Shown: positions 28,775-63,562 of the stretch, one piece after another
Layout of the letters: the number at the start of each line of letters is the position of its first letter
Numbering within the stretch: position 1 is the first letter of the stretch
Assembly (NCBI RefSeq): GCF_004345675.1
Contig: NZ_SLWU01000014.1
Span: 1-64,000 of the forward strand
Reading direction: 5' to 3'
Source: Caldanaerobacter subterraneus
GTDB taxonomy: Bacteria > Bacillota > Thermoanaerobacteria > Thermoanaerobacterales > Thermoanaerobacteraceae
DNA length: 64,000 nt
Program-made: the position numbers and the translations under genes
Notes under the pieces: generated by a model
Seen by the model: the letters and a program-made list of their open reading frames with translations, nothing else
What the model was told of the DNA's origin: nothing
Databases searched by the model: none

Positions 28775-29284
28775 ATGGACAAAAAGCTTTGGGAAGAATG
28801 TGTTTCCTTTCACGGGCATGAGTGCCCAGGACTTGCAATAGGTTTTAGAGCCAGTGAAGCGGCAATTAAAAAATTGAATCTCACCTTTTCTAAGGGCGAA
28901 GAAATTGTCTGCATCACAGAGAACAATGCCTGTGGAGTCGATGCCATTCAGTATATCACAGGGTGTACTTTTGGAAAAGGAAATCTAATTTTTAAGGATA
29001 AAGGCAAGCAGGCATTTACATTTTTTAGAAAAGATACCCGGGAAGGTGTTAGAATAGTATTAAAGGCTTTTAATCACGCTGATGACAGAAAAAAGTGGAT
29101 GGAATACTTGCTTAATGCTCCGCTGGAGGAAATTTTTGATTTTAAGACACCGCCTTATGAAATACCCCCAAAAGCGCGAATATATCCCTCTATTAAATGC
29201 GAAATATGCGGAGAGTACGCTGGAGAGCACAGAATAAGGTTAAAAGATGGTAAAAAAGTTTGTATAGATTGTTTTGGGGAATGA
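28775..29284 (+). CDS. FmdE-family protein with C-terminal zinc ribbon
   Basis: 169 residues. The N-terminal FmdE domain has CVSFHGHECPGLAIGFRAS (near 9-27) and CITENNACGVDAIQYITGCTFGKGN (near 50), typical metal/cluster-binding motifs. The C-terminal zinc ribbon is CEICGEYAGEH...CIDC (about 145-167). FmdE homologues are linked to molybdenum formylmethanofuran dehydrogenase in methanogens, but in bacteria the function is open. Co-location with an ABC importer suggests a metal- or pterin-related task. Confidence 0.82.
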   Translation: MDKKLWEECVSFHGHECPGLAIGFRASEAAIKKLNLTFSKGEEIVCITENNACGVDAIQYITGCTFGKGNLIFKDKGKQAFTFFRKDTREGVRIVLKAFNHADDRKKWMEYLLNAPLEEIFDFKTPPYEIPPKARIYPSIKCEICGEYAGEHRIRLKDGKKVCIDCFGE

Positions 29285-29285
29285 A

Positions 29286-29305
29286 AAAGCACGGGAAAGT
29301 GCTTT
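29286..29305. repeat. Left copy of duplicated terminator hairpin (20 bp)
   Basis: AAAGCAC-GGGA-AAGTGCTTT-type stem-loop directly after the FmdE gene. It is identical to 29559-29578 and abuts the left end of the mobile element exactly. It is the direct target duplication. Confidence 0.85.
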
Positions 29306-29558
29306 CAGTTTGTTGACAAAATTAGAGAAGTGGCATTTTGTGTGTAAATGCGACTTGTTACAAAGCGGTAACAAAACTTAGCGAGCTTGAGGAGCGAAGG
29401 TGGGGCGAGCGAAAGCGAGCGGCCACGTTGAGCCTGAAAGGCGAATTGGCCGGGACCCCGGCGGAGCCCGAAAAGCGAGCCTTAGTTTTGTCGCTTTGTA
29501 ACTCTGGAGCATTAACACAAAATGCCACTTAAATAAGAGGGACTTTGTCAACAGTCTG
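29306..29558. mobile_element. MITE-like element, copy A (253 bp)
   Basis: Termini are CAGTTTGTTGACAAA and, inverted, CAGACTGTTGACAAA. A second inverted pair AGTGGCATTTTGTGT / ACACAAAATGCCACT and a third GTTACAAAGCG...CAAAACT / AGTTTTG...CGCTTTGTAAC lie nested inside, so the element folds into one long hairpin with a GC-rich core. No coding capacity for a transposase; a short open frame inside it is not a gene. Flanked exactly by a 20-bp duplicated terminator hairpin. Homologous to 44309-44559 and 63481-63533. Confidence 0.85.
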
Positions 29559-29585
29559 AAAGCACGGGAAAGTGCTTTTTCTTTT
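29559..29585 (+). terminator. Right copy of duplicated hairpin; functional terminator
   Basis: The 20-bp hairpin 29559-29578 repeats 29286-29305, and here it is followed by a T-rich run. This is the original terminator T-tract, now separated from the FmdE gene by the element. Confidence 0.8.
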
Positions 29586-29595
29586 TTATAAAAAG

Positions 29596-29625
29596 TTGAC
29601 AGCCCTTTTTTTATGCGTTTATAAT
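29596..29625 (+). promoter_or_regulatory. Promoter of the NEW3/ABC operon
   Basis: TTGACA (29596) and TATAAT (29620), 18-base spacer. Confidence 0.6.
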
Positions 29626-29698: not shown

Positions 29699-30844
29699 AT
29701 GAAGATTGTCAAAGTATTAACTTTGGCTGTTACATTTCTAATGCTTTCTACTTACTGGAATAATATCGCTTATGCTGATGTTTCAGGAGTGACCTTTTTT
29801 ACGCCCTATATAAATATAGCGGTTACACCTGGAGAGACTATTTCCTACAGCATAGATGTTCAAAACAAATCTGGTCAAATTAAAAACATACCTTTAAGTG
29901 TAAAAGCCCCTGAGGGATGGCAGACTACTTTGACAGCTGGGGGATGGAAGATCGAAGAAATTTCTGTAAAGCCTAATGACAGCCAGACAATAACTCTTAC
30001 TGTGGAAGTGCCTTTAAAGGTTGATAAAGGAAGCTATAAAGTGGTGCTTTTAGGCTCTGGAGTTCCTGTTTTAACTCTTACAGTAAATGTGACAGAGCAG
30101 GGTACTTATCAGACAGAGTTGACTACAGACCAGCCCAATATGGAGGGGACGAATAAGTCTACCTTTAGTTATGAGCTTAAGCTTAAAAACCGTACCCCAG
30201 ATACGCAAAATTATGCTCTTATCGCTGATGTGCAACCTGGCTGGAACGTGCAGTTTACTGTGGAAGGCAAAGAGGTGACATCCGTATCAGTTGAGCCAAA
30301 CAGTCAGAAGCTAATTAGGGTTTCTATAACACCTCCATCTCAGATTAAAGCTGGTACTTACAAGATACCAATTAAGGCAGAGACGAAGAATACAAGCGCT
30401 TCTGTTACGTTGGAAGTGGTGATAAGGGGCACATATGGGTTAAAGCTTACTACTCCTACAGGAGTGCTTTCAATTGATATAGTTGCCGGTGGAGATAAAA
30501 AGGTGACTTTGCAGGTGAAAAATACAGGTTCGGCACAGCTGGCAAAGATAAAGTTTTATGCGGATACGCCTGTGGATTGGCAGGTAACCTTTGAACCTGA
30601 TACTATAGATACCCTCGCTCCTGGAGAGACAAAAGAGGTTACAGCTACGATACACGCTGATAAGAAAGCCATAGCAGGAGACTATGTGGTCACAATGAGG
30701 GCAAGTACCCCAGAGGCTAGTGACGAGGCTGTATTTAGAGTTACTGTAAAGACAAGCTGGGGTTGGGGAATTGTAGCGCTTCTCATAATTGCTGCTACAA
30801 TAGGGGTTTTATATTATCTGATTGAGAAATACGGGAGGCGGTAA
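29699..30844 (+). CDS. Exported NEW3-domain membrane-anchored protein
   Basis: 381 residues: signal peptide (MKIVKVLTLAVTFLMLSTYWNNIAYA, cleavage near 26), then three Ig-like NEW3/CARDB-type repeats of about 100 residues (each with a pattern like P-G-x-x-x-x-Y-x-x-x-V-x-N and a later E-V-P-x-x-A-G-x-Y), and a C-terminal membrane segment (about 355-375) with a short positive tail. It lies 3 bases before an ABC exporter ATPase, as COG1470 proteins often do. Probably an extracytoplasmic accessory of that transporter; substrate unknown. Confidence 0.82.
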   Translation: MKIVKVLTLAVTFLMLSTYWNNIAYADVSGVTFFTPYINIAVTPGETISYSIDVQNKSGQIKNIPLSVKAPEGWQTTLTAGGWKIEEISVKPNDSQTITLTVEVPLKVDKGSYKVVLLGSGVPVLTLTVNVTEQGTYQTELTTDQPNMEGTNKSTFSYELKLKNRTPDTQNYALIADVQPGWNVQFTVEGKEVTSVSVEPNSQKLIRVSITPPSQIKAGTYKIPIKAETKNTSASVTLEVVIRGTYGLKLTTPTGVLSIDIVAGGDKKVTLQVKNTGSAQLAKIKFYADTPVDWQVTFEPDTIDTLAPGETKEVTATIHADKKAIAGDYVVTMRASTPEASDEAVFRVTVKTSWGWGIVALLIIAATIGVLYYLIEKYGRR

Positions 30845-43644: not shown

Positions 43645-44283
43645 ATGAAGTTAATGGACATCGTAAAAAATTTTGTAGATATTGTACTTCACTTGGATAA
43701 ATATCTTGGAACGATAATTCAAACTTATGGCACATGGACCTATAGCCTTTTGTTTTTTATCATTTTTCTTGAGACGGGTTTTGTAGTGACCCCTTTTCTC
43801 CCAGGTGATTCGCTTTTATTTGCTGCAGGGACCTTTGCTGCGATAGGGAGTCTGAACGTGTACTATGTGATTGTGCTTTTAGCTTCTGCTGCAATATTGG
43901 GAGATACGGTTAATTACCATATAGGTAAGTTTATAGGTGAAAAAATTTATGAGAGTGAAAATTTGAGATGGATAAAAAAAGAGCATTTACTGGAAGCTCG
44001 TGATTTTTATGAGAAGTACGGCGCTATTACTATTGTGGTAGGAAGGTTTATCCCTATCATCAGAACCTTTGTCCCTTTTGTTGCAGGAATTGGCCAGATG
44101 AGATATTTTAGGTTTTTGTTTTACAACGCGTTTGGCGGAATTCTCTGGGGTTCTCTTTTTACTTTGGGAGGATACTTTTTTGGAAATTTGAAAATAGTCA
44201 AGGACCATTTTGGGTTGGTTACTATTGCTATAATTGTGATTTCAGTGATACCTGCAATTACCACTTTTCTTAAAAGAAAATGA
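43645..44283 (+). CDS. DedA family membrane protein
   Basis: 212 residues with about five membrane segments. Family motifs: [25 protein letters not shown] (near 45-70) and [32 protein letters not shown] with its conserved arginines (near 130-160). DedA proteins help flip undecaprenyl phosphate or phospholipids and support envelope homeostasis. Start at ATG 43645 behind GGAAGGATG. Single gene. Confidence 0.88.
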
Positions 44284-44306
44284 GCTGGGGTTTTGCACTA
44301 GCTCAT
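44282..44306 (+). terminator. Hairpin after the DedA gene, no T-run
   Basis: TGAGCT / AGCTCA arms start at the stop codon. The T-run expected of a terminator is missing; the mobile element begins 2 bases later. It looks like a terminator stem whose T-tract was lost with the element insertion. Confidence 0.5.
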
Positions 44307-44308
44307 CT

Positions 44309-44559
44309 CAGACTGATGACAAACTCAGAGAAATGGCATTTTGTGTGTAAATGCGACTTGTTACAAAGCGGTAACAAAACTTGGCGAGCTTGAGAGCGGA
44401 GGCAGGGCGAGCGAAAGCGAGCGGCCACGTTGAGCCGTAAAGCGAATTGGCCGGAACCCCGCTGGAGCTCGAAAAGTGAGCCTTAGTTTTGGCGCTTTGT
44501 AACTCCGGAGCATTAACACAAAATGCCACTTAAAAGATAAGGACTTTGTCAGCACTCTG
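44309..44559. mobile_element. MITE-like element, copy B (251 bp)
   Basis: Termini CAGACTGATGACAAA and, inverted, CAGAGTGCTGACAAA. The interior aligns with copy A end to end: the GGCATTTTGTGT / ACACAAAATGCC arms, the GTTACAAAGCG arm and GC-rich core. Core differences from copy A are mostly small substitutions and single-base indels. Unlike copies A and C, the two flanking hairpins differ from each other. No transposase coding capacity. Confidence 0.85.
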
Positions 44560-44587
44560 AGGCAGGATAAAATGTCCTGCTATTTTT
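44560..44587 (+). terminator. Terminator on the right side of copy B
   Basis: GCAGGA / TCCTGC stem followed by TATTTTTT. Different in sequence from the left hairpin at 44282. Confidence 0.8.
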
Positions 44588-44630
44588 TATGCTATAATAA
44601 TAGCAACAAATTTATAAGGAGGGGAAAGAG

Positions 44631-45050
44631 GTGGAGGCAAAAAATGCAGGAATAGATGAGAAACTTTTTGAAGAGCTTTTAGAGGTGAACAGAAATACAA
44701 ATTTTCATCAGTTAATAGGAGTTCATGTGGTAGAACTGGGACAAGGCTATGCTGTGACAGAAATAGAAATTGAAGAAAAGCACCTTAATCCTCTTAATAT
44801 TGCTCATGGAGGCGTGCTTTTTTCAGTGATGGATATCACTATGGGTATGGCGGCAAGGACAGTAGGTAAACAGGTGATAACTATTGAGATGAATATAAAT
44901 TACCTTTCCCCAATAAGAGTAGGGGAAAAAGTGAAAGCCAAAGGCAAAATAGTTCATGCGGGGAGTAAAACTACTGTGGCAGTTTGTGAAGCCTATGCTG
45001 AAGATGGGAGACTTTTGGCTGTAGCTAGAGAAACTTTTTTCAATATGTAA
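44631..45050 (+). CDS. Hotdog-fold thioesterase (PaaI family)
   Basis: 139 residues from GTG 44631 behind AGGAGGGG. Hotdog motif NPLNIAHGGVLFSVMDITMGMAA (near 52-74) with the catalytic Asp/His-Gly-Gly, and ITIEMNINYLSPIRVGEKVKAKGKIVHAGSKTTVAVCEAY later. Hydrolyses acyl- or aryl-CoA thioesters; exact substrate not evident. Single gene. Confidence 0.87.
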   Translation: MEAKNAGIDEKLFEELLEVNRNTNFHQLIGVHVVELGQGYAVTEIEIEEKHLNPLNIAHGGVLFSVMDITMGMAARTVGKQVITIEMNINYLSPIRVGEKVKAKGKIVHAGSKTTVAVCEAYAEDGRLLAVARETFFNM

Positions 45051-63461: not shown

Positions 63462-63480
63462 TCCTCCTTTTTAAGGAGGG
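63462..63480. repeat. Left copy of duplicated terminator hairpin (19 bp)
   Basis: TCCTCC-TTTTTAA-GGAGGG-type stem-loop, identical to 63534-63552 and directly adjoining the element. Confidence 0.85.
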
Positions 63481-63533
63481 TAGAGTGTTGACAAAATTAC
63501 CACTTGAAAGATAAGGACTTTGTCAACAAACCA
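63481..63533. mobile_element. MITE-like element, minimal copy C (53 bp)
   Basis: Contains only the two ends of the longer element: GTTGACAAAATTA as in copy A on the left and CCACTTGAAAGATAAGGACTTTGTCAAC, close to copy B, on the right. The nested arms and GC-rich core are missing, so it is an internal-deletion derivative. Flanked exactly by a 19-bp duplicated terminator hairpin. Confidence 0.8.
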
Positions 63534-63562
63534 TCCTCCTTTTTAAGGAGGGGTTTTTTTTT
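63534..63562 (+). terminator. Right copy of duplicated hairpin; terminator
   Basis: Second copy of the 19-bp hairpin, followed by a run of nine T's, i.e. the original terminator tail. Confidence 0.85.

Follow-up and report, generated by a model that had tools for sequence, protein, structure and literature searches.

Whole terminator hairpins duplicated around a miniature element of Caldanaerobacter subterraneus and around related IS1182-family insertion sequences

In the first 64,000 nucleotides of contig NZ_SLWU01000014.1 from Caldanaerobacter subterraneus (the whole stretch analyzed here, called the window below), a 253-bp element, copy A, lies between two identical hairpins. How does an element come to sit between two copies of the same transcription terminator, and which transposase moves it? 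Both flanks of copy A (29306-29558) consist of the same stem-loop, AAAGCACGGGAAAGTGCTTT (29286-29305 and 29559-29578), flush with the element and without any gap, and direct sequence and a terminator scan place a T-run behind the right copy only. In these respects, the original prediction, made from the letters of the window, was correct. Copy A, which is located between the end of a gene at 29284 and the promoter (29596-29625) of the gene 29699-30844, has no open reading frame (ORF) of at least 80 aa. It bears CAGTTTGTTGACAAA at one end and CAGACTGTTGACAAA, inverted, at the other, and can be folded over its whole length into a single long, imperfect hairpin (z of -9.4 when folded together with the flanking hairpins). 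Its lack of ORF and its end-to-end folding match what is expected of a miniature inverted-repeat transposable element (MITE). A search of copy A against Rfam assigned it to no family and gave just two matches, far under the gathering scores.

We propose that a resident insertion sequence (IS) of the IS1182 family supplies, in trans, the transposase that moves this MITE. This transposase would target terminator hairpins via their inverted repeat and duplicate the whole hairpin. We give this reading a probability of about 0.88 because of the ends shared by the MITE and the IS, the IS1182 transposase, the dyad-centred duplications, the empty sites, where a single hairpin is found, and a signature that recurs across a clade of transposases.

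Copies, flanks and empty sites

Genome-wide counts rely on sequence searches of genomes. The genome that carries the window (2.58 Mb, 79 contigs) contains 12 full copies of the MITE and one degenerate copy. Duplicated hairpins, whose sequence differs at each site, surround 11 of the 12 full copies. They also surround the mini-copy C, where the different 19-bp hairpin that had been predicted is indeed found on both sides of 63481-63533 (TCCTCCTTTTTAAGGAGGG). Related MITEs are present in all ten genomes of the genus; most of them share with the query a core of only 71-76% identity. Both ends were found at 47 of 52 further loci of these congeners, with a direct repeat of 12 bp or more in 38 of the 47; several of the remaining loci, devoid of such a repeat, have diverged hairpin pairs. 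The predicted behavior, a non-autonomous element duplicating a whole terminator hairpin of variable sequence, is therefore supported at most copies. G007, a metagenome bin, was excluded from the analysis. At its loci L171-L177, many MITE copies with differing left flanks have one right flank in common (AGAGAGTAT...ACTCTCT), probably owing to assembly artefacts.

The exception among the 12 full copies is copy B (44309-44559), on which the original prediction is silent. In relatives, its left and right flanks are separated by 10-17 kb, and in G006, a sister species, the site orthologous to its right flank carries a MITE between duplicated hairpins. For these two reasons, copy B is likely a hybrid of two copies, generated by recombination or deletion with loss of the intervening DNA. 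Positions 44269-44640 were compared with G006:C33:60433-77828: compared to congeners, 10-17 kb were probably lost or rearranged at copy B by a MITE-mediated event.

The empty sites have one hairpin and not two, so that neither of the two outcomes that would have spoken against the prediction occurred. When the flanks of copy A are joined, they match G006 over their full length with 97% identity, and this species has a single hairpin followed by a T-run. An IS insertion in G003 (L094) is flanked by a duplicated 28-bp hairpin, and the empty orthologous site of G004 has one hairpin, three bases shorter. For a further MITE site (L006), the search for an empty site gave weak partial matches only. 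The hairpins could instead be products of recombination between copies or of assembly error, as the right flanks of G007 (probably scaffold artefacts) and the hybrid copy B might suggest. However, the same pattern occurs at dozens of independent sites in single-contig genomes, and at both sites for which a full-length orthologue exists, the empty version has one hairpin; we find this explanation scarcely credible. Another possibility is a replacement of the IS1272 type, with loss of the target hairpin and a different source for the flanking hairpins, for example the element itself. IS1272, which belongs to the IS1182 family, does replace or trim its target hairpins without duplicating them (PMC4923244, PMC5678879). 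However, the hairpins found here differ among sites, are identical in pairs and are equal to the single hairpin of empty sites, and an IS1272-like transposase has only 28% identity, over part of its length. For copy A, replacement is refuted by the empty site of G006, and for the system as a whole we judge it very improbable. As for the hairpins being part of the element itself, this was ruled out since the flanking hairpin differs among sites.

The partner insertion sequence and its relatives

Elements with the same ends as the MITE are IS of about 1.56 kb (1560-1568 bp) with the terminal inverted repeats CAGACTGTTGACAAA and CAGTTTGTTGACAAA. Their transposase matches the IS1182 profile NF033551 with 410.7 bits (cut-off, 270), full-length copies from congeners reaching 490-498 bits, and contains the domains DUF772 (PF05598), DDE_Tnp_1 (PF01609) and PF13751. 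This profile score, the combination of DUF772 and DDE domains, a size of about 1.5-1.7 kb and terminal repeats that read CAGrCTGnTGACAAA or nearly so all resemble the IS1182 family, whose named relatives of this IS are ISBspe1, ISEfa7 and IS1562. The link to an IS30-type transposase that had been predicted for the element, on the model of IS1630, did not hold. Every full element examined with CAGnnTGTTGACAAA ends has IS1182 genes inside, and the IS that resembles the MITE in its ends, copy pattern and hairpin duplications encodes an IS1182 transposase. No IS30 protein was found next to the inspected ends, IS30 not having been searched for genome-wide. Membership of the IS30 family is thus a very doubtful alternative.

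The similarity between the MITE and the IS is limited to the terminal 15-17 bp, and an asymmetry of the ends (CAGAC/CAGTT) is common to both. Their target behavior is also alike, with dyad-centred hairpin duplications. Judged by these sequence features, its ends and its target behavior, the 253-bp element is a MITE related to the IS1182-family IS of the same genome. In this draft genome, the IS copies are located at contig ends. All seven are flanked by duplicated hairpins, and the contig pairs were matched by eye via identical hairpins (C20/C8, C13/C9, C32/C19, C51/C24, C21/C60, C43/C3 and C2/C23). In three complete congeners (G001-G003), 15 of 17 IS copies have duplicated hairpins.

Serial insertion at a single terminator, giving three hairpin copies and two elements, was observed at L155 (G003), at L164 (G004) and at the C2/C23 junction. 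The order is hairpin-MITE-hairpin-MITE-hairpin at L155 and hairpin-MITE-hairpin-IS-hairpin at the C2/C23 junction.

The left end of the IS (for example L094, 1408-1480) combines a terminal repeat carrying a TTGACA -35 motif with a TATGAT/TATTAT -10-like motif, the latter included in a hairpin (GGGAACCCG..GGGTTCC) with a T-run. A promoter and a terminator of its own thus seem to be present in the IS, immediately inside its left end. Furthermore, all four IS copies L254-L257 of Thermoanaerobacter wiegelii Rt8.B1 (G001) harbor an ORF-less group II intron of about 670 bp (for example L254, ~117-780; Rfam RF02001, RF01998 and RF00029). This intron is inserted inside one terminal repeat, 7 nt past the duplicated hairpin (CAGnnTG^intron), at the left end in two copies and at the right end in the two others, and seems to be a group IIC intron that takes the IS-duplicated hairpin as its target. 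In G002, the same type of intron starts a few bases past the right-hand terminator copy of an IS (L107, ~3010) and of a MITE (L149, ~880), so that two unrelated mobile elements are stacked on one terminator.

Hairpin duplication is not restricted to this genus. Flush palindromic duplications surround three IS copies of Alkalihalophilus pseudofirmus OF4, the plasmid copy of which is annotated as ISBspe1, and related IS1182 elements of Evansella, Paenibacillus, Thermotalea, Anaerococcus, Clostridia, Bacilli and an Atribacteria bin. They were also found around an IS from another family of the same order (L253) and around plasmid IS1182 elements of Sutcliffiella, Enterococcus faecium, Aminobacter, Providencia and Acinetobacter. 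Two streptococcal phages show the same signature, one of the elements being annotated as IS1562. No hairpin duplication was seen for the IS1182 copies of G012 and G019 and for lower-scoring families in G002, G018 and elsewhere, which were used as negatives; the IS1272-like element and other IS1182-type transposases are likewise without the signature. In the transposase tree, all the tested transposases bearing the signature fall in one clade and the negatives are on one side of one branch (support 88/93). From these sequence comparisons, the related IS1182 elements with hairpin duplication belong to Bacillota, Proteobacteria, an Atribacteria bin and streptococcal phages, distant IS1182 branches being apparently devoid of it.

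Geometry of the duplication and proposed mechanism

The geometry was analyzed on 53 distinct sites with a clean duplication, of 17-33 bp (mean 23.7). With a finder blind to the position of the duplication, the best inverted repeat is within 0.5 nt of the duplication centre at 44 of the 53 sites, compared to 2% for random placement. Symmetric positions of the duplication are paired in 446 of 507 cases, compared to 40% after shuffling. The edge of the duplication is 1-3 nt outside the outermost G:C pair at 45 sites, and 52 have four or more T among the 8 nt at the right or four or more A among the 8 nt at the left. A chance origin of the hairpin duplication is excluded.

The variable length of the duplication and its fixed centre argue that the transposase reads a folded repeat. 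Alternatively, a symmetric transposase dimer could read double-stranded DNA, an A-tract and a T-tract around a G+C-rich core, without any hairpin being formed. Most duplications do begin with A or T and finish with T or A, the cut is 1-3 nt outside the G:C core and is often overrun by the repeat. However, a length varying between 17 and 33 bp around a constant dyad is hard to reconcile with a rigid dimer on linear DNA, and G+C-rich targets from Proteobacteria, such as AGGGCGGCATCTGCCGCCCT, behave likewise. We consider this alternative unlikely, though deserving more weight than those discussed above.

Several observations weigh against a transposase that reads and duplicates hairpins throughout this clade. 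At 17 of the 45 centred sites, the inverted repeat runs on for 2 bp or more beyond either edge of the duplication; the cut is thus symmetric but does not simply fall at the end of the repeat or strictly at the base of the stem. Of the two exceptions among the 17 IS copies of complete congeners, L085 is inserted inside an ORF and flanked by a 6-bp duplication that is not a hairpin, and L110 shows no duplication at all. Several plasmid copies (ISEfa7, Staphylococcus simulans, E. faecalis) have differing hairpins at their two ends. Finally, the branch support of the clade is moderate and the outgroup branches are long. With the first of these caveats, recognition by shape and not by sequence, as originally predicted, is still the best inference.

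In the mechanism that we propose, the transposase of the resident IS would move copy A in trans. This DDE transposase would pick the hairpin of an intrinsic terminator through its inverted repeat and not through its sequence, probably by attacking and cutting an extruded hairpin or cruciform. The two 3' ends of the element would be joined to the two strands symmetrically about the dyad. The joining point, usually 1-3 nt beyond the outermost G:C pair, would be the 5' foot of the hairpin in either strand, and gap repair would then copy the whole hairpin onto both sides. After insertion, the left hairpin keeps the upstream A-run and the right one the T-run, both hairpins being expected to terminate transcripts that leave the element, and transcription of the upstream gene is expected to cross the MITE and end at the right hairpin. 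The claim that insertion leaves a terminator on both sides is thus overstated: since the left copy loses the T-run and has an upstream A-run only, the right copy is the sole complete terminator of the upstream gene. Duplication of the hairpin would also renew targets for further insertion. Table 1 lists the features of the window.

Table 1. Coordinates of the three MITE copies, their hairpins and the neighboring features in the window
Feature	Position	Strand	Basis
Upstream gene ended by the terminator, 169 aa, putative FmdE-like	28775..29284	+	by eye
Left hairpin copy, AAAGCACGGGAAAGTGCTTT (target site duplication), not followed by a T-run	29286..29305	.	direct sequence, terminator scan
Copy A, 253-bp MITE	29306..29558	+	
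Terminal inverted repeat CAGTTTGTTGACAAAAT, first 15 bp identical to the IS right end	29306..29322	+	
Opposite terminal inverted repeat (reverse complement CAGACTGTTGACAAAGT), first 15 bp identical to the IS left end	29542..29558	-	
Right hairpin copy	29559..29578	.	direct sequence; empty site in G006
T-run kept by the right copy only	29579..29588	+	direct sequence, terminator scan
Perfect consensus promoter, outside the element, ahead of the downstream gene 29699-30844	29596..29625	+	
Copy B left hairpin (ATGAGCT..AGCTCAT)	44280..44306	.	
Copy B, MITE, ~90% identity to copy A, two differing hairpins, probable recombinant	44309..44559	+	
Copy B right hairpin (AGGCAGGATAAAATGTCCTGCT), unlike the left one	44560..44581	.	
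Copy C left hairpin TCCTCCTTTTTAAGGAGGG	63462..63480	.	
Copy C, 53-bp mini-MITE, internally deleted	63481..63533	+	
Copy C right hairpin (TCCTCCTTTTTAAGGAGGG, 19 bp), T-run after it	63534..63552	.	

Significance and comparison with known systems

This work provides dozens of natural insertions with a target duplication of variable length defined by structure, which is unusual among DDE transposases. An element whose target is a hairpin and whose insertion points are symmetric would land at gene ends. Furthermore, since the upstream gene would still have a working host terminator in the right hairpin, and since both hairpins point outward, the insertion would be nearly harmless. Insertion into terminators that leaves one complete terminator may account, as our results suggest, for the tens of element copies per Thermoanaerobacter genome. 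In draft assemblies, the duplicated hairpins allow contig ends to be paired across collapsed IS copies. More broadly, it is rather probable that a widespread IS1182 clade reads DNA hairpins and inserts symmetrically, homing to terminators being common to its autonomous and MITE forms and representing the duplicating counterpart of IS1272 replacement.

Some members of the IS1182 family are reported to target palindromes (Siguier, as cited in PMC5678879 and PMC4923244). Our search of the literature found nothing on structure-guided targets or on ISEfa7 and ISBspe1, which is weak evidence as subscription journals were mostly missing, and no description, in the open-access literature, of dyad-centred duplication of whole hairpins across a clade and by MITEs. 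In Thermoanaerobacter kivui, the megatransposon TnCO-1 is a mobilized 86-kb circle linked to an IS1182-type element (PMC12056078). As in the present system, an IS1182-type transposase adjoins the mobilized region, in the same genus; however, no hairpin target is reported there (PMC12056078), and the identity of its IS copy with the present IS is not proven. Group IIC introns also insert at intrinsic terminators by recognition of the stem-loop (PMC7161350), but they do so by RNA-based retromobility, after and not around the hairpin, and without duplication.

IS1630, an IS30-family element of Mycoplasma fermentans, duplicates inverted repeats (Calcutt 1999, as cited in PMC3317919). The present elements likewise duplicate the whole repeat, but their transposase belongs to an unrelated family and they are not members of the IS30 family. 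In staphylococci, IS1272 and TnSha1 target hairpins, often transcription terminators, without any sequence consensus (PMC4923244, PMC5678879). They delete or replace the hairpin without duplication, whereas here the hairpin is present twice and the empty site has one; the IS1272-like transposase also lies on a separate branch of the tree. Wan et al. (PMC5678879) proposed an attack at the 3' foot with loss of the hairpin for IS1272 and drew duplication of the whole hairpin as a hypothetical pathway b only. The 5'-foot attack with gap repair that we propose would correspond to this pathway, which was merely sketched and now becomes testable. One transposase family with two branches, in which the hairpin is either duplicated or replaced, offers a direct comparison of the position of strand attack. 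The novelty claimed by the original prediction is therefore partial: hairpin targeting (IS1272) and duplication of whole repeats (IS1630) were already known, and what is new is hairpin duplication across an IS1182 clade together with its non-autonomous derivative, the wider clade being the main addition.
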